NCBI GenBank assembly: GCA_947499005.1
Contig: CANMML010000004.1
Location: 62,001 to 126,000 of the forward strand
Direction of reading: 5' to 3'
Source: an uncultured Aquimarina sp.
GTDB lineage: Bacteria; Bacteroidota; Bacteroidia; Flavobacteriales; Flavobacteriaceae
Length of the DNA stretch: 64,000 nucleotides
In this document: piece after piece, positions 1,632-14,024 of the stretch
How positions within the stretch are numbered: position 1 is the first letter of the stretch
Layout of the letters: every line of letters starts with the position of its first letter
Notes under the pieces: generated by a model
Seen by the model: the letters and a program-made list of their open reading frames with translations, nothing else
The model's database searches: none
Told to the model about the DNA's origin: nothing
Position numbers and translations under genes: made by a program

Positions 1632-3464
1632 ATGAGTAGTACTTTAAATCAAACGATAAGTAGTATTTCACCAACAAGTGGAAGTCTTACAGGTGGGCAA
1701 ACTATCACCATCACGGGAACAGGTTTTTCAGGAACTTCACCAAGCATCAATTTTGGAGCTGCTGGAGGAAGTAATATTACCGTAGTTTCTGATACCGAAA
1801 TTACAGTCACCAATCCAAATGTTTCAGCACCGATTTCCGTAAAAGTAGATGTGCTTTTTAAGGGTGTAGCTACTAAGGCAGGAACATTTGATTATCGTGC
1901 TCCTGTCATTACAAGTATATCGCCGAAAACTACCAATATTAATGGATCAAAGACGATTACGATTAATGGGAAGTACTTTACAGGAACTCAAGCTGTTAAT
2001 TTTGGCGCTATGGGAGGAGGCAATGTAAAAGTGATTTCGGATAGTAAAATTACAGTGACTAATCCTAATAGCCCCAAGTCACAAATTGTTGATGTAGTGG
2101 TGATTACTCAAAATAATGCTTCAGTACGTACTTCTAATACTAAGTTTTCTTATACTAGTCTTGCAAATAATGGAGTTCCGTTTTTGTTTAAAACTACTAC
2201 TAAAAAGGTATTTATTCACTTCTTAGGAGCAAAGACGATAGATGGATTTTATTACGATAAGAATTCAAATAAGCAGACGCTAGCTGTAGATACGGCTTAT
2301 AAATTATCAGATATTTCAAATTTAACCTCTTTTAATCCTAAATTACCGTCAGGAACTCCAGGAGTAGTAGTTAAAGCTTTTTCAGGAAGAATTTATGTAA
2401 GTCTCAATAAAAAATTAAAATGCCTAGGTTCTGGTTATACACCAGCAGCAGGAACTTCAAGCGATCCTAATTATAAGGTATATTATCAATATTTTGAGCC
2501 GACAGTTGTAGACTCACAGCTTAATGTTGATTTATCATACATTGATTTTACAGCTTTCTCCCTTTCCTTATTCGCAAAAAATGCTCCTTATGCTACTAAT
2601 GGAACCCAAAAAAGTACGTCTAGTTTAGCATTGGTGAAAGCAGCGGCTGCGGCAGCTTCTTCGACAAATGCTTCAGTGTTACCTTCAAGTAATAAAATGT
2701 TACCAAGCTCAAAATTTGCGAGAGTAATAAGCCCTCAATTAAGTGCTAGTAGTATGTATCATGATTTCACAAATTACCTGAAGACGTTTTTAGCAGGAAA
2801 ACAAGTTACTATAAAAGGAATTTATGCGGGTACAAATAAGCAGCCATCCTCTAGTCCAGAAACTCAAGCACAAAGCTATGATTACACGGGGACTTTTGCG
2901 ACTAATGGGTCGATAACACTGTCACCTAATTCAGATTCTGGAAATGGGAAAGCGAATGGAGTACCTACAGCACAACAAGGTACGGGAGTTGGAAATGCGA
3001 CAGGCAATATCGTTATTTCGTTTAGTGATCTAAATAGTCCTATCGGAGTTTATGGATGTAATGCTCCGTATACATTAGGAAGTAACCCTAAAACAAAAGG
3101 AATTACGAATGACTTTTATGGCCAAGTAGTAGGCGACGTTTATGCTGGTTTGAATTTTGGTTTTATAGGGAGTACCGTTGCTTTTGGTTCAACGACTATA
3201 GGAGATTTGTCTAGTACAGCATGGTGGGGAGGAACATTGCCTGATGGTAGTATCATTCAGCCAAAAGATTCACCAGGAGGAAAAGGCATTTACTTTAAAA
3301 AAGCACAACCTGCAAATGATGATTATTATAACTCATACTCAGGTAATATTAGTGATTTAACAACGGGTTATGGCTTTCCTCTTCAAGATCGTTTAGGACA
3401 AAACCTATTAACATTAAATACTTCTGTAGATTCAAATGCTTATCTAGAGATAGATATAGATTAA
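1632..3464 (+). CDS. IPT/TIG domains plus GH64-like beta-1,3-glucanase domain
   Basis: Two tandem IPT/TIG beta-sandwich repeats (about residues 8-88 and 90-173) begin with the typical ISSISPTSGSLTGGQTITI and ITSISPKTTNINGSKTITI patterns. The rest (about 178-610) resembles the GH64 / thaumatin-like beta-1,3-glucanase fold: a VYVSLNKKL segment, DPNYKVYYQYFEPT, a Leu-Ser-Tyr-Ile-Asp-Phe strand, and a C-terminal YGFPLQDRLGQNLLTLNT followed by an acidic strand. An Ala/Ser-rich linker (about 335-365) sits inside it. There is no signal peptide or lipobox and no C-terminal sorting domain, which is odd for an enzyme on a polymeric substrate. It may be an intracellular or non-classically exported laminarin-type enzyme or a non-catalytic homologue; the catalytic Glu/Asp pair was not assigned. 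Confidence 0.7.
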   Translation: MSSTLNQTISSISPTSGSLTGGQTITITGTGFSGTSPSINFGAAGGSNITVVSDTEITVTNPNVSAPISVKVDVLFKGVATKAGTFDYRAPVITSISPKTTNINGSKTITINGKYFTGTQAVNFGAMGGGNVKVISDSKITVTNPNSPKSQIVDVVVITQNNASVRTSNTKFSYTSLANNGVPFLFKTTTKKVFIHFLGAKTIDGFYYDKNSNKQTLAVDTAYKLSDISNLTSFNPKLPSGTPGVVVKAFSGRIYVSLNKKLKCLGSGYTPAAGTSSDPNYKVYYQYFEPTVVDSQLNVDLSYIDFTAFSLSLFAKNAPYATNGTQKSTSSLALVKAAAAAASSTNASVLPSSNKMLPSSKFARVISPQLSASSMYHDFTNYLKTFLAGKQVTIKGIYAGTNKQPSSSPETQAQSYDYTGTFATNGSITLSPNSDSGNGKANGVPTAQQGTGVGNATGNIVISFSDLNSPIGVYGCNAPYTLGSNPKTKGITNDFYGQVVGDVYAGLNFGFIGSTVAFGSTTIGDLSSTAWWGGTLPDGSIIQPKDSPGGKGIYFKKAQPANDDYYNSYSGNISDLTTGYGFPLQDRLGQNLLTLNTSVDSNAYLEIDID

Positions 3465-4346: not shown

Positions 4347-4892
4347 GTGATTTTAGAAGAAAAGAATATTATTGATATTAGACTTGATAAGATAATAGGG
4401 AAACCTATTAAATTCGATATCAATAATAGATACAGCGTAGGTAGTAAGTCTTTTTTCTTAAAATCATTTGATTCTGAAAATAGTAATTACGTTGATTTAA
4501 AAATTGATTCTAAATGTAATTTCCAAAAATATACAAATGGAATTTTGATGCGAATTAATTACTCTAATAAGATTAATGCTGTAGCAATTAGATATAATGA
4601 TATTGGCAAAATTGAGTTGATTAGAGGAGAAGAAAGCATTAGTCCTTATTTCTTTTCACCAATGAAAATTTTACTCAAACTAAATGTACCTATTAGATAT
4701 GCAAGATATTTTGGACTAAGACATAGTGAATACCAAATTTCTGATACAGAATTAAAAATTTTCACAAAAGACATTAAGATCAAGTTAGTTACTAATGGTT
4801 TTGATTTTGAAAATCAATTACCTTTTTTTGAGAGTTTAAACTTAAATAACAAACTTAAAATAATAAAAAAGCCCACTTACAAAATCATGTAA
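4347..4892 (+). CDS. Hypothetical protein with GTG start, 181 aa
   Basis: I do not recognise this protein. It is soluble, rich in Asn, Ile and Lys, and looks mostly beta-stranded, without cysteines that suggest metal binding. The proposed start is GTG; the first ATG is far inside the conserved-looking frame. It could be co-transcribed with the preceding membrane protein. The 262-base AT-rich gap downstream separates it from the next operon and shows no further gene. Confidence 0.5.
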   Translation: MILEEKNIIDIRLDKIIGKPIKFDINNRYSVGSKSFFLKSFDSENSNYVDLKIDSKCNFQKYTNGILMRINYSNKINAVAIRYNDIGKIELIRGEESISPYFFSPMKILLKLNVPIRYARYFGLRHSEYQISDTELKIFTKDIKIKLVTNGFDFENQLPFFESLNLNNKLKIIKKPTYKIM

Positions 4893-5154: not shown

Positions 5155-5850
5155 ATGCTTAAAAACCTGAAATCCCTTTTTATTGTTCAAGATGATGAGC
5201 AAGAGAAAAAGGAAAATAATACGAGTCCCGATGGTACACCTTCAGAAAAAGAACCATCAACGAATACAGAACAAAAATCTAAAATAGTTAGTAACAATGC
5301 AGCCAATACAAAGCCTTTATCAAATACAGGTGGAGTCATTGATGCTAAGATTGTAGAAAAATTACTTCAAGCAATAGAGAAAAACAATCTAGAAGGATTC
5401 GACTATTTAGAATATAAAAAGTCATTGAAGGCACTAGAAAAAATGCCTATGGATGAAGCTACAAAGTTTCGTTCAGCATTTGCAACAGCGGCTACAATGG
5501 GGGTGACCTTAGATAAATTGTTAGATACTGTCAAATTTTATATCGGTATTCTAGATAAAGAAAATGATCAGTTTGTAGGAGCTTTTAAAAGCCAGTTTAA
5601 CGATAAAGTATCGGGTAGAGAAAGAGAGGTAACTCAATTTGAGCAGATTATTGCTGAAAAGTCAAAGCAAATTCAACAATTAACAGCAGAAATAACAAAG
5701 CACCAAACTCAAATTCAAGAATTAAAGCAGAAATTAGAAGAGGATAATTCTAAAATTCAAAAGACACAGAATGATTTTCAATTATCGTATACTCATCTAA
5801 AAAAGCAATTTGAGGACGACGTAACTAAAATGCAACAATACTTAAAATAA
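5155..5850 (+). CDS. Coiled-coil protein heading the transporter/PspA-like operon
   Basis: A cytosolic protein of 231 residues with no membrane segment. After a short N-terminal helix there is a polar, probably disordered stretch (about 18-60), a helical region (about 63-140), and a long coiled coil (about 145-231) with Gln/Lys/Glu heptads. It is the first gene of a co-directional cluster and is separated by one base from the two-TM PspA-like gene, so the products are probably made together. I do not know a named family; a scaffold or partner of the next protein is an inference from context. Confidence 0.6.
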   Translation: MLKNLKSLFIVQDDEQEKKENNTSPDGTPSEKEPSTNTEQKSKIVSNNAANTKPLSNTGGVIDAKIVEKLLQAIEKNNLEGFDYLEYKKSLKALEKMPMDEATKFRSAFATAATMGVTLDKLLDTVKFYIGILDKENDQFVGAFKSQFNDKVSGREREVTQFEQIIAEKSKQIQQLTAEITKHQTQIQELKQKLEEDNSKIQKTQNDFQLSYTHLKKQFEDDVTKMQQYLK

Positions 5851-5851
5851 G

Positions 5852-6865
5852 ATGGACAACACTTCACTTAAACCAAAGTCTTTTTGGGAAAAACCAGAAG
5901 GGAAAACGGGAATGCTATTCACAGCTTTATTGGGCGGAGGAGCATTATATGGCTTGTATAAAATTTTACCATATTTAATAGAAATTGTAGAAAACACCTT
6001 GTATTTAGGGGTGTTGTTAGCTGTTTTAGGAGCTTTAATCTATATGATTTTAGACCCTAAAATGCGAAACCTAATTTTCTATATGTATAAATCTTTTATG
6101 CGTTGGATTACAGGTATTTTTATTCAGATTGACCCTATAGGAATTCTTAAAAGTTATGTAGATGATCTTAAGGATAATTTGAAAAAAATGAACAAGCAAA
6201 TATCTGTTCTTAAAGGTCAAATGAAGCGTTTACAGCAGATCATGGCTGAAAACAAGAAGAGTATCAATAGTAATCTAAAACTTGCGAGTGCTGCTAAAGA
6301 AAGAGACAAGCAAGGGATTATGATTTTGAAATCTAGAAAAGCAGGGCGTTTAAAAGAATCGAATCTTAAATTAGATGGTCTTTATAAAAAGCTAGAAATA
6401 CTATATCGCGTTTTGTCAAAAATGTATGAAAATTCTGAAATAATGTTGGAAGATATAGAGGATCAGGTGATTGTTAAAGAGCAAGAACGAAAAGCGATCA
6501 GAGCCAGTCACTCCGCAATGAAATCTGCGATGAATATTATTTCGGGAAACAATGACAAAAAGGAAATGTTTGACAGAGCCTTGGAAGCTATTGCTGATGA
6601 TGTGAGTATGAAAATAGGTGAAATGGAGCGTTTCATGGAAATGTCTACAAACTTTATGGACTCTATTGATTTACAAAATGGAATTTTTGAAGAAGAAGGC
6701 CTTGAAATGTTAGAAAAATGGGAGAAAGAAGGCGTATCTTTTATTTTAGGAAGTCAAAAAGATGTATTGGTACATGATCAACATCAGGTAGATTTAGATG
6801 CACCAATTCTTAAAAACAAATCACACAATAACCAATATTCGGATTTATTTAATTTCGAAGACTAA
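5852..6865 (+). CDS. Two-TM coiled-coil protein resembling PspA/IM30 (ESCRT-III-like)
   Basis: Two hydrophobic helices near the N-terminus (about 19-41 and 48-68) are followed by a long helical region. From about residue 94 it follows the PspA/Vipp1 pattern: a DP...L...VDDLKDNL...K start, a long amphipathic coiled coil, and regularly spaced Ala/Glu/Lys positions to about residue 260. Classical PspA has an amphipathic N-terminal helix rather than two TM segments, so this would be a membrane-tethered variant. The C-terminal 60 residues are acidic and ungroupable. PspA-family proteins bind and remodel stressed inner membranes; applying that here is inference. It sits between the coiled-coil gene (1-base gap) and the OmpA-fused binding protein (21-base gap). 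Confidence 0.55.
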   Translation: MDNTSLKPKSFWEKPEGKTGMLFTALLGGGALYGLYKILPYLIEIVENTLYLGVLLAVLGALIYMILDPKMRNLIFYMYKSFMRWITGIFIQIDPIGILKSYVDDLKDNLKKMNKQISVLKGQMKRLQQIMAENKKSINSNLKLASAAKERDKQGIMILKSRKAGRLKESNLKLDGLYKKLEILYRVLSKMYENSEIMLEDIEDQVIVKEQERKAIRASHSAMKSAMNIISGNNDKKEMFDRALEAIADDVSMKIGEMERFMEMSTNFMDSIDLQNGIFEEEGLEMLEKWEKEGVSFILGSQKDVLVHDQHQVDLDAPILKNKSHNNQYSDLFNFED

Positions 6866-6886
6866 AACATAATTACTTAAACAATC

Positions 6887-8437
6887 ATGGCAAAAGCTAA
6901 ACTAACCCCGTTTTCTAAAATCTTAATTGTAGCAGCAATTGTAGGAGGGCTATATTATTTGTTAACCCAATTGAGGAATCCTTCAATAAAAAAGCAAATA
7001 GAAAAAGTAACTTCTATTCAAGGTAGTAAAGGGGAAACAAAAGAAGGATATAAAGAGGTTATTAATGTTGGAGTAGTAACTTGGGGAGGTTACGCTGGAG
7101 GACAATATTTTAACGAAGGATTTGAAGCCAATACAAAGTCTCGTTTTTATAAAGACTATGGATTTAAAGTGAATTTTGAAGTAATTGACGATTTTGATGC
7201 TTCTAGAGATGCTTTTAAAAATGGATCCATTGATCTTATGTGGGCTACTATAGATGCTTTCCCTACTGAAGTAGCAGGGTTAGCTCAGTTTCAACCACAA
7301 GTTGTTTTTCAAGCAGATTGGAGTCGAGGAGGAGATGCCATAGTAGCTTCTAGAGGAATTAATAAAGTAAGTGACTTAAGAGGTAAGAAAATCGCCGTAG
7401 CGCCTATGACACCTTCGCACTCGTTTCTAATATGGCTTTTAGAAGCAAGTGATATGAGTACTAAGGATGTTAAGATTATCGAAGTACCTAGTGCTATAGA
7501 TGCTGCTGATGCATTCAAAAGTAGTACTGTAGATGCTGCTGTTGTTTGGAGTCCAGATGATGCAGATTGTGTAGATAAAGTACCTGGTGCTAAAGTATTA
7601 GAAAGTACTAAAAATGCAACTCATATTATAGCAGATGTCTTTGTAGCTAAAAAAGAATTCATCGAAAAGAATAAAGAACAACTTCAAAAATTATACGAAG
7701 GTTGGATGATCGGAGCTTCGGAATTGAATAAGTCGGTAAGTAATAAAAAGAAAGCGGCTAAAATCTTAGCAGCAGGTTTATCACAACCAGAGGATTTTTG
7801 TTTCGATGCGATTAATAATGTAAGATTGGCAACTCATGGTGACAATATAGATTTCTTTGATTTAAATCCTAAATACAATGGAGTTACAGGAGAGGATTTA
7901 TATAACAAAATGAAGGTAAAATATAACAACTTAGGATTCTCCACAAAAGGAGCAAAGAGTTGGAGGTTATTATCAACAAAAGATTTAGTAAAAAGAACAA
8001 GTCTTTCAGGAACAGATCATAGTGCAGAAGGGCAAAAACAATTTACTGCGGTTAGTAAAAGTGTTGAGTATAAAGAATCTCTGGCGTCGAAAAAAGTGAG
8101 TATCAGCTTTAGAACTGGTGAATTTCAGTTAGGAGATAATGCAAAACAATTGATTGATCTTCAATTTACACCAATTGCAAAGGCCTTTGCCAATGCTCGT
8201 ATTCGAATCGAAGGAAATACAGATAATGTAGGAAATAGAAGTTCGAATATTGTGTTGTCAAAAAAGAGAGCGCAGTCCGTAGCAAATTACCTTATCAATC
8301 AACACCATATGCCTCGTAATAGGTTTATCATTCATGGTAATGGGCCAGATAAGCCAGTAAAGGGTTGCGAGCGTAATCAAAATAGTGAATGTAAATCTAA
8401 GAATAGAAGAACTGACTTTGAACTTGTAGTGGACTAA
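6887..8437 (+). CDS. ABC substrate-binding protein fused to OmpA-like domain
   Basis: Domain order: one N-terminal membrane segment (about 10-28) acting as an uncleaved anchor; a periplasmic binding domain of the NMT1/SsuA/TauA type (about 55-360) with INVGVVTWGG at its first strand, DLMWATIDAFP and DLRGKKIAVAP; a linker; and an OmpA C-terminal domain (about 405-516) with IEGNTDNVG (441-449) and NRRTDFEL (506-513), the Asp and Arg positions that hold diaminopimelate of peptidoglycan in this family. Ordinary binding proteins are free or lipidated; one tied to both inner membrane and cell wall is unusual. The permease starts 2 bases downstream, so it is surely the cognate binding protein. Substrate unknown; the fold group includes sulfonate, nitrate and pyrimidine-precursor binders. 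Confidence 0.85.
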   Translation: MAKAKLTPFSKILIVAAIVGGLYYLLTQLRNPSIKKQIEKVTSIQGSKGETKEGYKEVINVGVVTWGGYAGGQYFNEGFEANTKSRFYKDYGFKVNFEVIDDFDASRDAFKNGSIDLMWATIDAFPTEVAGLAQFQPQVVFQADWSRGGDAIVASRGINKVSDLRGKKIAVAPMTPSHSFLIWLLEASDMSTKDVKIIEVPSAIDAADAFKSSTVDAAVVWSPDDADCVDKVPGAKVLESTKNATHIIADVFVAKKEFIEKNKEQLQKLYEGWMIGASELNKSVSNKKKAAKILAAGLSQPEDFCFDAINNVRLATHGDNIDFFDLNPKYNGVTGEDLYNKMKVKYNNLGFSTKGAKSWRLLSTKDLVKRTSLSGTDHSAEGQKQFTAVSKSVEYKESLASKKVSISFRTGEFQLGDNAKQLIDLQFTPIAKAFANARIRIEGNTDNVGNRSSNIVLSKKRAQSVANYLINQHHMPRNRFIIHGNGPDKPVKGCERNQNSECKSKNRRTDFELVVD

Positions 8438-8439
8438 TT

Positions 8440-9405
8440 ATGAGTTTCAAAAAATATTTTGAGCTAAGAGGAAACCTAGCATCTAAAGATAAAATAGTAT
8501 TAACCATCATCGGTTCACTATTTTTAATTGGATGCTGGTTTTTACTAGCTGAGTTTTTATCAAAAACACTGGTTACTCAGGATGAATCAGTGGATCTTTC
8601 GAAAATTTCTGAAACAGAACAACGCTATTATAAAAGTGATTCGCTTCTGGTAGCAAATTATGATACCTTAGAAAACTTTAGTGAAGAAAAACTTCAATCT
8701 TTTGGATTGAAAAAACAAAAAGTATATCCCTTATTACCGTCACCGGTTAAAGTATTAAAGGCTTTTCCCGAACTAAATGATAAGGATGATGTTATAGGAA
8801 ATACATTTTTTTCTATTAAACTCAACTTCTTAGGGTATTTTCTAGCTATTTTAATCTCTATTCCTGTAGGTTTTCTTTTAGGGTTAATTCCTCTATTTAG
8901 AGGGTTGTTTAGCCAAATCATAGATTCATACAGGTTTATTCCTTTGACTGCTGTAACAGGTATTTTTATTATGTGGTTAGGCTTGGGTAGCGAAATGAAA
9001 GTAGCCTTTTTAGCTTTCGGTATTATTGTATACTTAATACCTGTTGTTGTACAGCGTATAGACGAAGTAGAGAAGGTATATTTAAATACGGTCTTTACAT
9101 TAGGAGCCACTTCTTGGCAAACGATTCGCAGCGTATACATCCCTTATGTTTTTTCGAAAATTATAGATGATATTCGTGTACTTACTGCTATCTCATGGAC
9201 GTATATCACCATTGCCGAAATGCTGAATAAAGGAGGAGGAATTGGAGAATTGATATGGACTGCAAAGAGACAGAGTAGGATTGATAAAGCATTTGCGATA
9301 TTAATCATCATCGTTATTATAGGGATTTTACAAGATCGTTTGTTTGTATTTATAGACAAGCTATTATTTCCATATAAGCATCTTAATAAAGGTAACAAAC
9401 ACTAA
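8440..9405 (+). CDS. ABC transporter permease, SsuC/TauC-like, with insertion after TM1
   Basis: Inner-membrane permease of the BPD_transp_1 family. The C-terminal two thirds carry the usual five helices and the EAA loop that docks the ATPase (TLGATSWQTIRSVYIPYVF). The first helix (about 25-46) is followed by a polar extension of about 60 residues rich in Glu, Asp and Ser before the conserved core, where typical SsuC/TauC proteins have a short loop. This segment should face the periplasm and could contact the OmpA-fused binding protein. Gaps of 2 and 3 bases to the neighbours show one operon. Confidence 0.88.
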   Translation: MSFKKYFELRGNLASKDKIVLTIIGSLFLIGCWFLLAEFLSKTLVTQDESVDLSKISETEQRYYKSDSLLVANYDTLENFSEEKLQSFGLKKQKVYPLLPSPVKVLKAFPELNDKDDVIGNTFFSIKLNFLGYFLAILISIPVGFLLGLIPLFRGLFSQIIDSYRFIPLTAVTGIFIMWLGLGSEMKVAFLAFGIIVYLIPVVVQRIDEVEKVYLNTVFTLGATSWQTIRSVYIPYVFSKIIDDIRVLTAISWTYITIAEMLNKGGGIGELIWTAKRQSRIDKAFAILIIIVIIGILQDRLFVFIDKLLFPYKHLNKGNKH

Positions 9406-9408
9406 GTT

Positions 9409-10215
9409 ATGTCTGTACAATTTCAAGATACTCATGCCGCAAATATTATTGAATTACGAGGGGTAAATCAATATTATGATGAAGGCAAAACAAAGATTAT
9501 TGAAGGTTTAGATTTACTTATAGAAGACAAACCAATGCAAGGACAATTTGCAGCAATCCTTGGGATGTCGGGTTGTGGGAAATCTACTTTATTAAGATAT
9601 ATTGCAGGTCTTCAAAAGCCTACTTCGGGAGAAGTATTGGTGAAGGGAAAACCTGTCAGTAAGGAGAATAGAGTGAGTATGGTTTTTCAACAGTATTCTT
9701 CTCTTCCTTGGATGACTGTATTGGATAATGTTGCTTTGGGGTTGCAATTTAAAGGGGTTCCTAAGCAAGAACGAGAAGCAAAAGCCATGGAGATGATACA
9801 ACTCGTAGGCTTAGAAGGACATCACAAAAAATATGCACAATATCCAATATTATCGGGTGGTCAGTTACAGCGAGTGGCGATTGCCAGAAGTTTAATGTCT
9901 AATCCCGAAATACTATTAATGGATGAGCCTTTTGGAGCTTTAGACGTTAAGACAAGACTGCAAATGCAAGACTTATTGTTAAGTATTTGGGAGAAATTTA
10001 GTCCGACGATACTTTTTGTGACTCATGATATACAAGAAGCAGTGTATTTGGCAGATGATATTTTTATAATGAAGCACGCGCCATCTCATTTTGTAGAACA
10101 TATACATGTAGATCTTCCTTTTAAAAGAGATCGTGAAACAAAAAGATTGCCCAATTTTGATGAATTAGTACATCAGGTAGAAGATGCTATGATGAAGATT
10201 GATACCGTTGGATAA
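9409..10215 (+). CDS. ABC transporter ATPase, SsuB/TauB/NrtD-like
   Basis: All nucleotide-binding motifs are intact: Walker A GMSGCGKST (52-60), Q-loop MVFQQYSSLPWMTV, signature LSGGQLQR (148-155), Walker B ILLMDEP with D172/E173, D-loop GALD, and H-loop T205-H206-D207. The QYSSLPWMTVLDNVALGL segment is typical of the sulfonate/taurine/nitrate importer ATPases. It would energise import by the adjacent permease and OmpA-fused binding protein. A 116-base gap to the AAA+ gene may hold an internal promoter, none clearly visible. Confidence 0.92.
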   Translation: MSVQFQDTHAANIIELRGVNQYYDEGKTKIIEGLDLLIEDKPMQGQFAAILGMSGCGKSTLLRYIAGLQKPTSGEVLVKGKPVSKENRVSMVFQQYSSLPWMTVLDNVALGLQFKGVPKQEREAKAMEMIQLVGLEGHHKKYAQYPILSGGQLQRVAIARSLMSNPEILLMDEPFGALDVKTRLQMQDLLLSIWEKFSPTILFVTHDIQEAVYLADDIFIMKHAPSHFVEHIHVDLPFKRDRETKRLPNFDELVHQVEDAMMKIDTVG

Positions 10216-10331
10216 TTGAGTTTATAAAGGATACAGAGAACAATGTGTTTAGTATAATTAAGAGAGAACAATCTCTTTAAATTAGATCAATAATCATTAG
10301 ATCCGATTTCAATTACTATTTCTTGAATATT

Positions 10332-12233
10332 ATGAATATTAGAAAATACTTTAAGACTACAGATTTATTTTTTTCGAAGTTAAATGAGGTAGATAAGGCA
10401 CACTTTTTTAAAGGAAAAGCAATGAATCCTTTAAAGGTAATTTCTATTTCAGATCGCTTTTCTTCTTTGAATATAAAAGAAGAAGATTTGTTGTTGATGT
10501 ATTCTATTTCTGGAAGTAGAGAAGATTTAGATGTATTGTTAACGACTAAACAAGTACACCTAAAGGAAGAAAGATTTCCTTTGGAGTCTTGGTTGTCAAA
10601 CATTCAAAAATTAAAAGATATTCATCAAGATCATCTGCAATTGCTAACAAATCTTGTCAATGATCTTATCCTACATAATAATGATGAAAAAAGAGATCTA
10701 GCCTCTTTTACAGATAAATTCAAAGACTTTTTAAATAAAAAGGAGTCCACAACACAACAGTTTGATATCGATTATGAGTTCCTTCAAATACTAAAACATG
10801 AAGGAGAAAAGATCGAACAGCTAGCGGAGGATCTTAATAATAATAAAGCATTTAGTAATACCATTAATGATATTGTAAATAAGTCCGATGATGCTATGGT
10901 ATTTAAGGCAGAGCATATTGTACTTCAAGATATTATTAAAGTGTATAATTGGATTTATCCACTAAGTGATAAAAAGAATACGATTGCAGAATCTAAAGTA
11001 AAATTCACTTTAGCTTTTCTTTTTGAAAAATTACAAGGAAACGATATGATCTCTAGTATATCTATTGAGCGTATCAATAAATTTGTAGTATCAGAAAAGT
11101 TCGATGAGAATATAGAAACGATAAAAAAAGCTAATCTTTTTGATTTAGGAGAGGAGTATAAAAATGAGTTTTTATTACCAGCTATCTTAAAAAGATTGGA
11201 TAGTCCACATTTTGTGAATTCGGGTACTTTTTTATACCGTATTGCTTCATTAATTACGAAAGCAGACGGTAGTATTTCTGAAGAAGAGCAGCAATTATTA
11301 ACTAAAATAGAAGATAAATTATCGCATCCTAAACATAAGATTCAAGGAGTTACACAAAGTGAAGTAGATGAAAACGAAACACTAGAAGATGTAATGGATG
11401 AACTGAATCAACTAATAGGTTTAGACAACATAAAACAATCTGTTCAAGAGCTTTCTAACTTCTTAAAAATTCAAAAAATAAGAGAAGAAAAAGGCTTGAA
11501 AAGTGTTACAAACTCATTGCATTCCGTTTTTATGGGGCCTCCGGGGACTGGAAAAACGACGGTAGCTCGCCTAGTTTCTAAAATTTATAAGCATTTAGGA
11601 TATTTAGAAAAAGGACATCTGGTTGAAACGGATAGATCTGGTATGGTTGCTGGATACGTAGGTCAAACGGCATTGAAAGTCGAAGAGGTGGTAACAACAG
11701 CGATGGATGGAGTTCTTTTTATAGACGAAGCCTATTCATTAGCTAGTGGAAACAAGAAGGATTTCGGAAATGAAGCGGTAGAGGTACTGCTTAAAAAGAT
11801 GGAAGATCATAGAAAAGATCTTATTGTGATTGTTGCAGGGTATCCTGATGAAATGAAGGATTTTATTGGTGCGAATCCAGGGCTTCAATCTCGATTTAAT
11901 CGATATTTTAATTTTGATCATTACAAACCGATTGAATTGATGGGGATTTTCGAATTGTTTTGTAGAAAAAATGATTTCCAATTAGTAGATGAGGCTAAGG
12001 AAAAACTACAATTTATCTTTGACAAACTATATGAGAAGCGTCATAAAAGCTTTGGAAATGGGAGAGTGTCAAGAAATCTATTTGAAAAAATCATAGAATA
12101 TCAAGCGAATCGTATTGTTGCTATAACGCCACTTACCGAAGAGCTATTAAAGAATATTACAGAAGAAGATATTCCTCCTGTCAATAAAACTGTAGAAGAT
12201 TATTTGCGTTTTCAACAAGATGAAAATGAATAA
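10332..12233 (+). CDS. AAA+ ATPase of CbxX/CfxQ type with TerB-like domain
   Basis: The start is placed at ATG 10332; a TTG nine bases upstream is possible but less likely. The N-terminal half (1-280) is helical and unrecognised. A TerB-like helical segment follows around residues 292-335, with ITKADGSISEEEQQLL. The C-terminal half is a CbxX/CfxQ/SpoVK-type AAA+ module: Walker A GPPGTGKT (402-409), Walker B GVLFIDEAYSLA (460-471), then sensor-1 IVIVAGYPDEM and an arginine-finger region LQSRFNRYF. Such ATPases remodel protein or membrane-bound assemblies. Here the obvious partner is the PspA-like protein or the transporter of the same cluster, as an inference. Its last codons overlap the dioxygenase gene. 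Confidence 0.85.
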   Translation: MNIRKYFKTTDLFFSKLNEVDKAHFFKGKAMNPLKVISISDRFSSLNIKEEDLLLMYSISGSREDLDVLLTTKQVHLKEERFPLESWLSNIQKLKDIHQDHLQLLTNLVNDLILHNNDEKRDLASFTDKFKDFLNKKESTTQQFDIDYEFLQILKHEGEKIEQLAEDLNNNKAFSNTINDIVNKSDDAMVFKAEHIVLQDIIKVYNWIYPLSDKKNTIAESKVKFTLAFLFEKLQGNDMISSISIERINKFVVSEKFDENIETIKKANLFDLGEEYKNEFLLPAILKRLDSPHFVNSGTFLYRIASLITKADGSISEEEQQLLTKIEDKLSHPKHKIQGVTQSEVDENETLEDVMDELNQLIGLDNIKQSVQELSNFLKIQKIREEKGLKSVTNSLHSVFMGPPGTGKTTVARLVSKIYKHLGYLEKGHLVETDRSGMVAGYVGQTALKVEEVVTTAMDGVLFIDEAYSLASGNKKDFGNEAVEVLLKKMEDHRKDLIVIVAGYPDEMKDFIGANPGLQSRFNRYFNFDHYKPIELMGIFELFCRKNDFQLVDEAKEKLQFIFDKLYEKRHKSFGNGRVSRNLFEKIIEYQANRIVAITPLTEELLKNITEEDIPPVNKTVEDYLRFQQDENE

Positions 12234-13143
12234 GATGATTACAGAAAAGGATATTTCTAAAAAAGTAGGTCATGCCGTAAAATCACCTATTCGCATTGGG
12301 AATCTAAAAGATCTAGGAATCGATCATGAAGTATTCATAAATCATTTTAGCCCCTTTTTTGAAGAATTAAAGAATGACGATTATGCTGTTAAGGCAAAGC
12401 AGATCAATTTTCTTAAAGAGGCTTTTCCTGAAGATGCTACTGAGATAGAAACATTTCATAAAGCGTATTTCGAAAATAAAGTTGAAGGAGCGGTTTTTAT
12501 TCCGTGGATAAAGAAGTTAACACCAGATGCACTAGAAGCATTTAAAATAGTTTCTACGATTACAAGACAACGTAATATTGCTTCCTTTCTAATAGAAATA
12601 TGGGATAATGAAATTTTCATAGAACGAACTCGAGAAGATGGTTTTGAGCAGAATGTAGGAGATTTTAGAGGGTGGAAACGAGAATTTCAACAAGCAGATA
12701 GTACTGCTGTTGAAGATCCTCTTTTTTACAAGCTCATGAAAAAAATCACGTTGCTAGTAAAAGAAATTCATCCTGATATAAGAAAGCTACAAATTACCAG
12801 TCATTTTATGCGAACCATAGCTCGTGAAAAGATCAAAGGGGAAAATGCACCTGAAGGGATTCATGAAGACGGTGCCGAGTATATAATGTCTGCACTGGTC
12901 GTAAACCGTCACAATATTAACGGTGCTGCAAGTCAAATTTATGAGAAGAAAGATAAAGGAGAAAAAGCTTTAATTTTTGAGAAAGAGTTGGCTCCAGGAG
13001 AATTTATATTTCAAGCAGATACAGGAGAAGAATATACGTTTGGGAATGATTTATGGCATTATGTAACTCCAGCAGAGCCCGAAGACATTAATGAAATCGG
13101 GCTAAGGGATATTATAGGTTTTGATATTGATCTGTTGGATTAA
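12220..13143 (+). CDS. 2-oxoglutarate/Fe(II) dioxygenase, PF10014-like
   Basis: The C-terminal half fits the family of L-isoleucine 4-hydroxylase and BsmA: EGIHEDGAEYIMSALVVNRH, then GEFIFQADTGEEYTFGNDLW and H-Y-V-T-P, then GLRDIIGFDI. The iron triad would be H215, D217 and H280, and R296 would hold 2-oxoglutarate. The N-terminal 130 residues are unfamiliar. Possible ATG starts lie at 12220, 12226 and 12235; the last begins just after the AAA+ stop. Family members hydroxylate free aliphatic amino acids or related small molecules, so the transporter could import the substrate, but this is inference. The 3' end overlaps the convergent methyltransferase by 4 bases. Confidence 0.75.
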   Translation: MKMNKMITEKDISKKVGHAVKSPIRIGNLKDLGIDHEVFINHFSPFFEELKNDDYAVKAKQINFLKEAFPEDATEIETFHKAYFENKVEGAVFIPWIKKLTPDALEAFKIVSTITRQRNIASFLIEIWDNEIFIERTREDGFEQNVGDFRGWKREFQQADSTAVEDPLFYKLMKKITLLVKEIHPDIRKLQITSHFMRTIAREKIKGENAPEGIHEDGAEYIMSALVVNRHNINGAASQIYEKKDKGEKALIFEKELAPGEFIFQADTGEEYTFGNDLWHYVTPAEPEDINEIGLRDIIGFDIDLLD

Positions 13144-14024
13144 GACAAAGTACAGGTGATATCATCAAGTGAAGCCCCGTAATTGAAATTAAAATCTATA
13201 TGAATTAAATCTCCTGCTTTTACCTCAATAGTATTGGTCGTTTTTAATACTGTTGGAGGCATTAAACTGTCGGTACCTGTAAAATTAGATCCAGGAGTAA
13301 CTTCGACATATGATTCTAAATACAATGCATTCACTGTTCCAGAAAAAAGAACAGGAACGGAAAAACTAAGAGAAACGCCTTGCTTTTTTTCTTTTAGTAA
13401 TTCAATTTCATTTACTAGAAATTGTTGTGTCAAAAACATAGGTTGATGACGCGTAAAATTAACAGGGTAGTGGTGTACTTCTTTATCGATTTGAGCCTCA
13501 CACAGTCTAGCGAAATTAACAATGCGATTTGGTAATAATTTACCATCGGGTTTTAAGAATTCTCGCATATGCTGAAAAATCTGGACCTGAAACTCATTAG
13601 CACAGTAAATACTCATTAGTTCGCCAATAACGAAATCTACTTTTTCAGGTAATTCAACTGTTAATGCATCGGCGTGAATAACCTCTACCTTATGAGTCCA
13701 GTCGTGTTTTGCAACCTCTTCTTTAATGAAAGGAATGATATCAGGATTATTTTCAATTAAATAGGCTTTCTTTACGTAAGGCATATATAATTTCGTAAGT
13801 GGTAACGTTCCTACACCCACTTCACATACTACAGCATTTTTTAAGTTATCATGAATTTCAAAAGCATTCCCAAAGGCATCAACACGTTGCTGATCCGATT
13901 CCATTATTTTATAATAAATTTCAGGAAAACCAAAATGATCTTCATCAAAGGTTTGAGCATCAAGTAACTTATATTTTAAGGCTTCGTAATTGTCTATTAT
14001 AGTTTCAAATAAATTGTCTGACAT
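13140..14024 (-). CDS. PRMT-like SAM-dependent methyltransferase
   Basis: A Rossmann-fold methyltransferase with motif I EVGVGT (68-73), an acidic motif II (IENN, 90-93), and GELMS (134-138), which resembles the double-E-loop region of protein arginine methyltransferases. The C-terminal beta-rich region (about 160-294) also recalls the PRMT barrel. It could methylate a protein or a small molecule; the bacterial members are largely uncharacterised. It converges on and overlaps the dioxygenase gene by 4 bases, which suggests long-standing linkage with that cluster. Confidence 0.75.
   Translation of the reverse strand: MSDNLFETIIDNYEALKYKLLDAQTFDEDHFGFPEIYYKIMESDQQRVDAFGNAFEIHDNLKNAVVCEVGVGTLPLTKLYMPYVKKAYLIENNPDIIPFIKEEVAKHDWTHKVEVIHADALTVELPEKVDFVIGELMSIYCANEFQVQIFQHMREFLKPDGKLLPNRIVNFARLCEAQIDKEVHHYPVNFTRHQPMFLTQQFLVNEIELLKEKKQGVSLSFSVPVLFSGTVNALYLESYVEVTPGSNFTGTDSLMPPTVLKTTNTIEVKAGDLIHIDFNFNYGASLDDITCTLS

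Follow-up and report, generated by a model that had tools for sequence, protein, structure and literature searches.

A gene cassette with a five-gene core was analyzed in a 64,000-nucleotide stretch of DNA from an uncultured Aquimarina sp. (GenBank assembly GCA_947499005.1, contig CANMML010000004.1, positions 62,001 to 126,000 of the forward strand), hereafter called the window. The core genes, g1 to g5, encode a coiled-coil protein, a predicted membrane-anchored protein resembling PspA and ESCRT-III, and an ATP-binding cassette (ABC) importer whose binding protein is fused to an OmpA domain; three further genes, g6 to g8, follow (Table 1). The main surprise beyond an initial annotation of this DNA was that the same cassette, in the same order, is present in some of the largest known bacteriophages. 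The gene set, order, and gaps given in that annotation agreed with the list of open reading frames (ORFs). Gaps of 1, 21, 2, and 3 bases separate g1 to g5, g6 and g7 overlap by 14 bases, and the convergent g7 and g8 overlap by 4. The start codon of g6 is TTG at 10323 or, more likely, ATG at 10332, leaving 107 or 116 bases, respectively, between g5 and g6. A foreign origin by base composition was rejected (core G+C 33.9%; 5-kb windows, mean 32.5, S.D. 1.5), as was a plasmid-borne origin, g2 and g3 having given no plasmid match.

Table 1. Features of the cassette and its 5' neighborhood; positions refer to the window (TM, transmembrane)
Feature	Position	Strand	Description
g1	5155-5850	+	coiled-coil protein
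g2	5852-6865	+	two-TM PspA/ESCRT-III-like protein (predicted)
g3	6887-8437	+	N-terminal TM anchor, NMT1/SsuA-class binding domain, C-terminal OmpA
g4	8440-9405	+	permease, type I ABC importer
g5	9409-10215	+	ATPase of ABC importer
g6	10332-12233	+	CbxX/SpoVK-type AAA+ ATPase, N-terminal region of ~345 amino acids
g7	12220-13143	+	PF10014 2OG-Fe(II) dioxygenase, an extra of Flavobacteriaceae
g8	13140-14024	-	PRMT-like methyltransferase, convergent to g7
multi-TM protein, 169 amino acids	3796-4305	+	usual first gene of the Flavobacteriaceae version
ORF between the 169-residue protein and g1	4347-4892		no Pfam match
protein 5' of the cassette	1632-3464		IPT/TIG domains and a GH64 beta-1,3-glucanase domain

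Bacterial relatives were collected by searching genome contigs with an alignment of four g3 sequences, which gave 298 stretches; 230 of these were relatives, and the best 80 were kept. Each gene was located with its own model, built from alignments that included many of the same loci, and genes were scored as in order when strand and order were kept, adjacency not being required. Rows of the numbered locus list (L) were dropped when they represented the same contigs (L002 and L003, identical to L008 and L009), contig repeats (L014, L106, L109, and L110), or near-copies (L113 of L102, L116 of L112). All five core genes were present in order on one strand in 43 of the 54 bacterial loci having both flanks. 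Where the sequence upstream of g3 exceeded 2.6 kb (62 loci), g2 was found in 59 and g1 in 58; where the downstream sequence exceeded 2.3 kb (66 loci), g4 was found in 57 and g5 in 58. Neighboring genes lay no more than 400 bases apart for g1-g2 in 55 of 62, for g2-g3 in 54 of 62, and for g4-g5 in 54 of 66 loci. The median g1-g2 gap was 13.5 bases in phages and 17 bases in bacteria of different families.

The neighborhood search thus found g1 to g5 adjacent, and not rarely so, as expected of a conserved unit. The initial annotation had proposed a seven-gene system; g1 to g5 emerged as its conserved core, and g6 and g7 occurred in only part of the loci. Carriers included the flavobacteria Aquimarina, Tenacibaculum, and Aureisphaera, and also Aureispira and further Saprospiraceae, Cyclobacteriaceae, Lacihabitans, Chitinophagales, Sphingobacteriales, and Bacteroidales. 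By classification, one metagenome-assembled genome (MAG) of Chlorobiota and one short Thiotrichaceae MAG contig were also carriers; the latter was placed among Bacteroidales in the g3 tree and may represent contamination. Flanking families other than the accessory genes were common to small groups of close relatives only. Searches with single sequences had suggested that the cassette is rare, the window genome standing alone among 148 genomes (order) and 296 genomes (phylum, E <= 1e-40). This picture was false; with an alignment as query, the numbers were 12 of 395 and, within the genus, 18 of 52.

In phage records, g2 matched 15 entries, all Lak megaphages. Matches to g3 were found in 29: 15 Lak records, the 735-kb phage LR756501/LR756503, phage G with two records (gp249), a fragment of a human faecal phage, and nine others, of which six are Acinetobacter records; the last nine were left out of the viral locus analysis. 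After removal of duplicates, the viral set from phage records and IMG/VR scans comprised 27 loci, 26 of them with g3. Matches were obtained for g1 in 25, g2 in 24, g4 in 26, and g5 in 24 loci, including one broken remnant in L009. Of the 26 loci classified as viral, 23 had all five genes in order, a Lak megaphage and the 735-kb phage among them; given the order kept in these 23 viral and the 43 bacterial loci, a reading as chance neighbors was rejected. When only the window protein was used as blastp query, g2 missed L015 and L018 alone among the 27 viral loci, and g1 missed L010, L011, L012, L015, L018, and L102. Terminase_6N matched in nine of the 28 virus records, namely those of phage G, LR756501, and Lak-A1 and 6 of 25 IMG/VR contigs, so the viral origin of the remaining 19 contigs rests on the IMG/VR classification. 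A viral fold library gave a single match below 0.001, to an unnamed protein (A0A8D4GLY7, E 6.6e-13, 26% identity).

Bacillus phage G (L015) carries a permuted set, with the permease gp243, the ATPase gp245, gp246, gp247, and the g3-like gp249 and gp250; the last two are adjacent OmpA proteins. The g1 and g2 models missed gp246 and gp247 at E 0.001 (0.011; 0.39 or worse). gp247 shares 32% identity with a protein of the faecal phage fragment (L018) that passes the Pfam PspA cut-off (42.4 versus 33.9 bits), and gp246, which is distantly g1-like, matches the neighbor of this PspA protein at 24%. Two other viral contigs showed peculiarities. In L009 (IMGVR_UViG_3300035659_001474), g5 is reduced to an 86-residue remnant without the middle of the ATPase (11400-11657); it is followed by an ORF with apparent resemblance to GIY-YIG homing endonucleases and by a putatively NfeD-like ORF. 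In L013, an ORF with a signal-peptide-like start (7121-7882) lies between g2 and g3; our impression is that it perhaps encodes a beta-barrel protein.

The relationship of bacterial and viral copies was followed in trees. L005, L010, and L012, which have a different binding half, the near-copy L059, and g3 sequences shorter than 440 amino acids were left out of the g3 tree. With the tree rooted on phage G, 79 bacterial rows fell inside viral diversity, in a biased sampling. An arrangement with all bacterial g3 on one side of a branch (support 89) was broken by adding divergent loci; the one-sided tree contained only the best 80 of the 230 bacterial relatives. Later trees contained 25 and 20 of the 80 bacterial loci together with the window and newly fetched loci. 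In the g2 tree with divergent bacterial loci, four bacterial/viral changes were needed, and forcing the 37 bacterial g2 rows into one clade gave a p-AU of 0.0225 in an approximately unbiased (AU) test that was chosen after the tree had been seen. That order of events tells against a strict reading of the g2 tree, as do its several long branches and unsettled bootstrap values. Taken together, the trees make more than one exchange of the cassette between phages and Bacteroidota probable.

The protein at the center of the cassette, g2, had been described as a two-TM, PspA/ESCRT-III-like protein. No match of the window protein to Pfam PspA (PF04012) was obtained at E <= 1, and because this match is missing g2 is termed PspA-like here and not filed as PspA. 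Among 68 g2 relatives, no Pfam family matched more often than PspA_IM30, which was recognized in 32 at E <= 0.1 (best 8e-7); the second most frequent family was recognized in 11. An AlphaFold model based on 68 sequences (mean pLDDT 74.6, pTM 0.47) shows TM helices at residues 15-47 and 49-67, forming a hairpin (15-67), a helix at 69-93, and three long helices at 95-298. Ten-residue means of pLDDT exceed 90 at 101-210, and the PspA/Vipp1/ESCRT-III-like helical region extends over residues ~70-287. The two TM helices are clear in the model; by simple hydropathy, the window protein has a single segment, and two segments are marked in 43 of 68 relatives from bacteria and 19 of 25 from viruses.

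In a Foldseek search of the PDB with this model, ranks 1-11 were all Vipp1/PspA (probability 0.97-1.00, best E 2.9e-3). VIA-align likewise placed Vipp1/PspA at ranks 1-9 (Z 12.0-13.4) and Snf7 at rank 11; 6zvs_A superposed over 133 residues at 2.1 Å, and in 6zvr residues 71-292 of the model were aligned to Vipp1 1-218. Comparison by hhalign of the 68 relatives with 15 PspA domains encoded elsewhere in the phylum gave 94% (E 1.3e-7, 85 columns), compared with 3.8% for the g1 family as control, and paired the g2 motif IDPIGIL with EDP at the start of PspA helix 1. Several values speak against the assignment. No Foldseek E value was below 0.001, full-length Vipp1 chains aligned from helix 0 on but with root mean square deviations (r.m.s.d.) of 7.6-16 Å, unrelated coiled coils reached VIA Z scores of 11-11.8, helical models scoring generously in fold comparison, and pLDDT was 56-73 over most of the last helix. 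For these reasons, the assignment is based largely on rank order, coverage, and the profile match. The ESCRT-III layout of helix 0, a helix 1-3 hairpin, and helices 4-5 is present in the model, and we regard g2 as a membrane-anchored protein resembling the ESCRT-III superfamily. The resemblance to PspA that had been proposed was thus found in predicted structure and in profile. g2 is similar to PspA/Vipp1 (IM30) in its predicted helical layout over ~215 residues and in its profile where helix 1 begins, the DP motif included; unlike them, it carries an N-terminal TM hairpin of its own. No PspB/PspC/PspF-type match was found among ten window proteins scanned. At 1e-15, PspA_IM30 matched nothing in the genome from which the window comes; 19 of 61 genomes of the phylum gave a match at this level.

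The partner of g2 in the cassette, g1, is predicted to be cytosolic, with a short N-terminal helix, a small helical domain, and a long helical hairpin. It gave no matches to known families, and no match above the usual helical levels in fold searches. In PHROGs, against which g1 to g4 were scanned, g3 and g4 matched groups without assigned function, g2 matched none, and g1 gave one weak match.

Domain searches bore out the ABC importer with a membrane-anchored, OmpA-fused binding protein (g3, NMT1_2 at 7.2e-11 and OmpA at 2.6e-15; g4, BPD_transp_1 at 8.1e-15; g5, ABC_tran at 3.4e-31). All parts of a type I ABC importer, that is ATPase motifs, a BPD_transp_1 permease, and a solute-binding domain, were present. 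The lipobox pattern was absent from every g3 scanned. The OmpA pattern TD..S..RA, which contains the peptidoglycan-binding Asp and Arg, was found in 78 of 79 bacterial and 22 of 26 viral g3 proteins; in one bacterial and two viral exceptions S-D replaces T-D, and in gp249 and the OmpA protein of L018 the Asp is missing. Window g5 has the Walker A, signature, Walker B, and H-loop patterns. Among full-length g5 proteins, 57 of 60 from bacteria and 20 of 23 from viruses have all four; the short g5 of L053, L072, L074, L076, and viral L009 were left out of this count. Because these patterns are complete in most g5, active import by g4/g5 is likely. The best annotated neighbors of the g3 binding half were TIGR03427 (79.5 bits, cut-off 333.9) and SsuA (75.3 bits, cut-off 163.5). 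Binding domain, permease, and ATPase score highly against importers of taurine, aliphatic sulfonates, nitrate, and urea (TauABC, SsuABC, TIGR03427), but far under the curated cut-offs, and the cassette binding protein differs from theirs by its TM anchor and OmpA fusion. Some relatives of TIGR03427 handle guanidine.

The importer is not the only partner of g1-g2. A different binding half (proteins of 592-613 amino acids) was found in viral L005, L010, and L012 and bacterial L179-L182; in the five scanned, OmpA alone was recognized beyond weak matches. These loci keep g1, g2, and mostly permease and ATPase, single genes having been missed by the gene calls. In L177 (5333-6397, minus strand) and L178 (8348-9430, plus strand), a TM-anchored protein replaces the importer after g1-g2. 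The two proteins share 65% identity; the L178 copy is weakly Ppx/GppA-like (E 3.4e-4, below cut-off), and the L177 copy has no Pfam match. All ten loci L183-L192 have g2, six of them together with a recognized g1, and viral L008 has the g1-g2 pair; the gene calls listed for L183-L192 and L008 include neither g4 nor a full-length g3. From these loci, the smallest unit seems to be g1-g2, most often joined by the importer. Importer-free pairs adjoin a chromate transporter (L185), an Na/Pi-PhoU cotransporter (L183), and a sulfate permease (L189), and PPK2 lies beside g1-g2 in the virus contig L008. A link of such pairs to oxyanion transport is a possible lead. A phosphate/polyphosphate theme, suggested by PPK2 in L008, the Ppx/GppA-like protein of L177/L178, and Na/Pi-PhoU in L183, was weakened when further loci proved to have genes for a sulfate permease, a chromate transporter, or a histidine kinase, or unrelated genes, and it remains a lead at most.

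The accessory genes are restricted to parts of Bacteroidota. g6 (AAA, 4.6e-19, and AAA_lid_6) was found in 27 of 80 bacterial loci, in one Bacteroidota subclade. PF00004 matched all 17 g6 relatives tested, and window g6 has one matching stretch. The TerB label given to g6 was barely supported, PF05099 reaching E 0.1 over 29 residues and E <= 0.01 in 1 of 17 relatives; a tellurite/TerB system was dropped on these weak matches. The PF10014-type dioxygenase (g7, 2OG-Fe_Oxy_2, 2.5e-28) and the PRMT-like methyltransferase (g8, PRMT5, 1.4e-9), with their 4-base overlap, were confirmed by domain search and ORF list. g7 was present in 18 of 80 bacterial loci, all Flavobacteriaceae, and in no viral locus; by clustering, g8 was present in 12 of 80, in Flavobacteriaceae and one Leadbetterellaceae locus (L047). 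The proposal that the importer delivers a substrate which the dioxygenase then hydroxylates fails for most copies, because g7 is confined to Flavobacteriaceae loci. Also typical of this family is a TM protein of ~167 residues, usually 5' of g1 (by clustering, 19 of 80 bacterial and 0 viral loci); the window copy is 46% identical to that of L032 and is separated from g1 by one ORF.

Within the genus, g2 was found in 18, g7 in 16, and g8 in 16 of 52 genomes. In the 46 genomes that are at least 90% complete, the three genes occur in an identical 16 with no exception; the two genomes with g2 and without g7 and g8 are 78% and 81% complete. The genomes with g6 at an identity of at least 63% are the 18 that carry g2 and no others (one copy is partial); nine other genomes have g6 paralogues of 52-55% identity that are without the first ~140 residues. 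The co-occurrence holds although g5, g6, g7, and g8 can be split by inserts of up to ~3 kb. In eight loci, several from Aquimarina and Tenacibaculum, a protein of ~905 residues lies between g6 and g7, the copy in L019 (15540-18260) being helicase-like (AAA_11/AAA_12); other loci have other inserts. On a UvrA tree of the best-scoring 30 of the 52 genomes, well-supported branches force three changes in cassette presence; three gains may explain them, as may a single gain with two losses.

The bacterial association has a precedent. Ravi et al. 2024 (PMC11237479) describe, in the part of their work that concerns such operons, PspA/Snf7-TM proteins with an AAA+ protein, an ABC ATPase, a permease, and PBPB-OmpA. 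A TM-bearing PspA/Snf7 homologue, ABC ATPase, permease, and PBPB-OmpA also occur together here, so that the bacterial copies share the parts list of that operon class, and the same idea, a link between membrane remodeling, solute transport, and peptidoglycan binding, appears in those pages. An AAA+ protein described there has two AAA+ domains, the N-terminal one inactive, and may also be the one meant for the long operons; in the present cassette the AAA+ protein is dispensable, and the five-gene core also occurs in huge phages. Section 18 of their paper mentions no fixed g1-like coiled coil, CbxX/TerB, dioxygenase, methyltransferase, or phages. The words "bacteriophage" and "virus" are absent from the main text of the paper, and one figure has a viral-lineage column. 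The bacterial operon association is accordingly already in print; the AAA-free core, the fixed g1, the exchangeable modules, and the phage copies are not in section 18. The novelty claimed in the initial annotation holds only in part. Among the matches listed, literature searches, which covered neither supplements nor bioRxiv and are weak evidence of absence, gave no report of phage copies. The main text of the huge-phage paper does not contain "transporter," "PspA," or "OmpA" and refers to a supplementary table of predicted membrane and cell-surface phage proteins, which may include the cassette (PMC7162821). The same three words were not found in the first Lak paper (PMC6784885); the second names one magnesium transporter (PMC8346664), and a survey of viral transport genes does not use "OmpA" (PMC6163359).

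We tentatively read g1 to g5 as one envelope machine, an ESCRT-III-type scaffold built onto a wall-anchored importer, and rate this at somewhat below an even chance. g3 would span from the inner membrane to the cell wall and pass a small solute to g4/g5. g2 would polymerize on the inner leaflet at the transporter, where it would curve, cluster, or seal the membrane, with g1 as its partner or regulator. In the subclade of the window only, the AAA+ protein g6 would probably work on polymerized g2 in the way Vps4 works on ESCRT-III. In huge phages, the machine would keep the membrane of a long-infected cell intact and the cell supplied. Part of the evidence pulls the other way. g4 is missing in 9 and g5 in 8 of the 66 bacterial loci with downstream room, g3 and g4 lie within 400 bases in only 50 of 66 bacterial and 17 of 26 viral loci, and g6 occurs in 0 of 27 viral loci. 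Because importer-free pairs exist and g4/g5 are missing or g3 and g4 lie apart elsewhere, the g1-g2 pair and the importer are separable.

A wider form of the proposal is possible, though we incline to doubt it. g1-g2 would be a TM-anchored, ESCRT-III-type chassis for swappable, inner-membrane-anchored periplasmic modules, traded repeatedly between phages and Bacteroidota and holding and feeding the host envelope during long infections. The modules seen beside g1-g2 are the NMT1-OmpA importer, the second OmpA-fused type, and the Ppx/GppA-like protein.

Alternatively, and in our view unlikely, the cassette could be a sensor in which a ligand signal from g3 passes via g4/g5 to turn on g2 under envelope stress, solute flux being secondary. 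PSP systems guard against envelope stress (Ravi et al. 2024, PMC11237479). The OmpA domain of g3 would attach it to the wall, g1-g2 also stands beside the TM-anchored Ppx/GppA-like protein, and the window genome is without the PspA_IM30 match noted above. However, most copies, those of phages too, retain the permease and the ATPase motifs, as expected for transport, and the cassette contains no regulator. Less probable still is a nutrient importer that travels together with an independent PspA homologue with no physical coupling. It would agree with g1-g2 pairs that occur alone and with the exchange of the g3 binding half, but the order is kept across phages and bacteria of different families with short g1-g2 gaps, and g1-g2 stay when the binding half differs.

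A known defence system was rejected, as the PADLOC matches of g1, g3, g5, g6, and g8 were to generic parts of unrelated systems (coiled-coil, OmpA, ABC, AAA, and methyltransferase parts of LmuB, ZorB, Mad3, IetA, and Mad2). Envelope exclusion, by which a phage would alter the infected surface or membrane against injection by other phages and bacteria would have domesticated the cassette, fits its presence in huge phages, the position of bacterial copies among viral ones, the patchy distribution in one genus (18 of 52), and the suggestion in the huge-phage paper that phage membrane and cell-surface proteins may change susceptibility to other phages (PMC7162821), but is highly improbable given that PADLOC matched only generic parts (ATPase, OmpA, methyltransferase) and that an importer is an odd tool for that job.

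Under the reading of g1 to g5 as one machine, the cassette would link ESCRT-III-type membrane remodeling to a wall-anchored importer. Because the phage G record names a laboratory-type host, its job can be tested on the phage side; phage G can be grown. A defined five-gene set shared with bacterial chromosomes bears on the question of why the largest phages carry so many genes. If the reading of g1-g2 as a chassis is true, it would constitute a virus-encoded, membrane-remodeling transport complex of a kind not described before.

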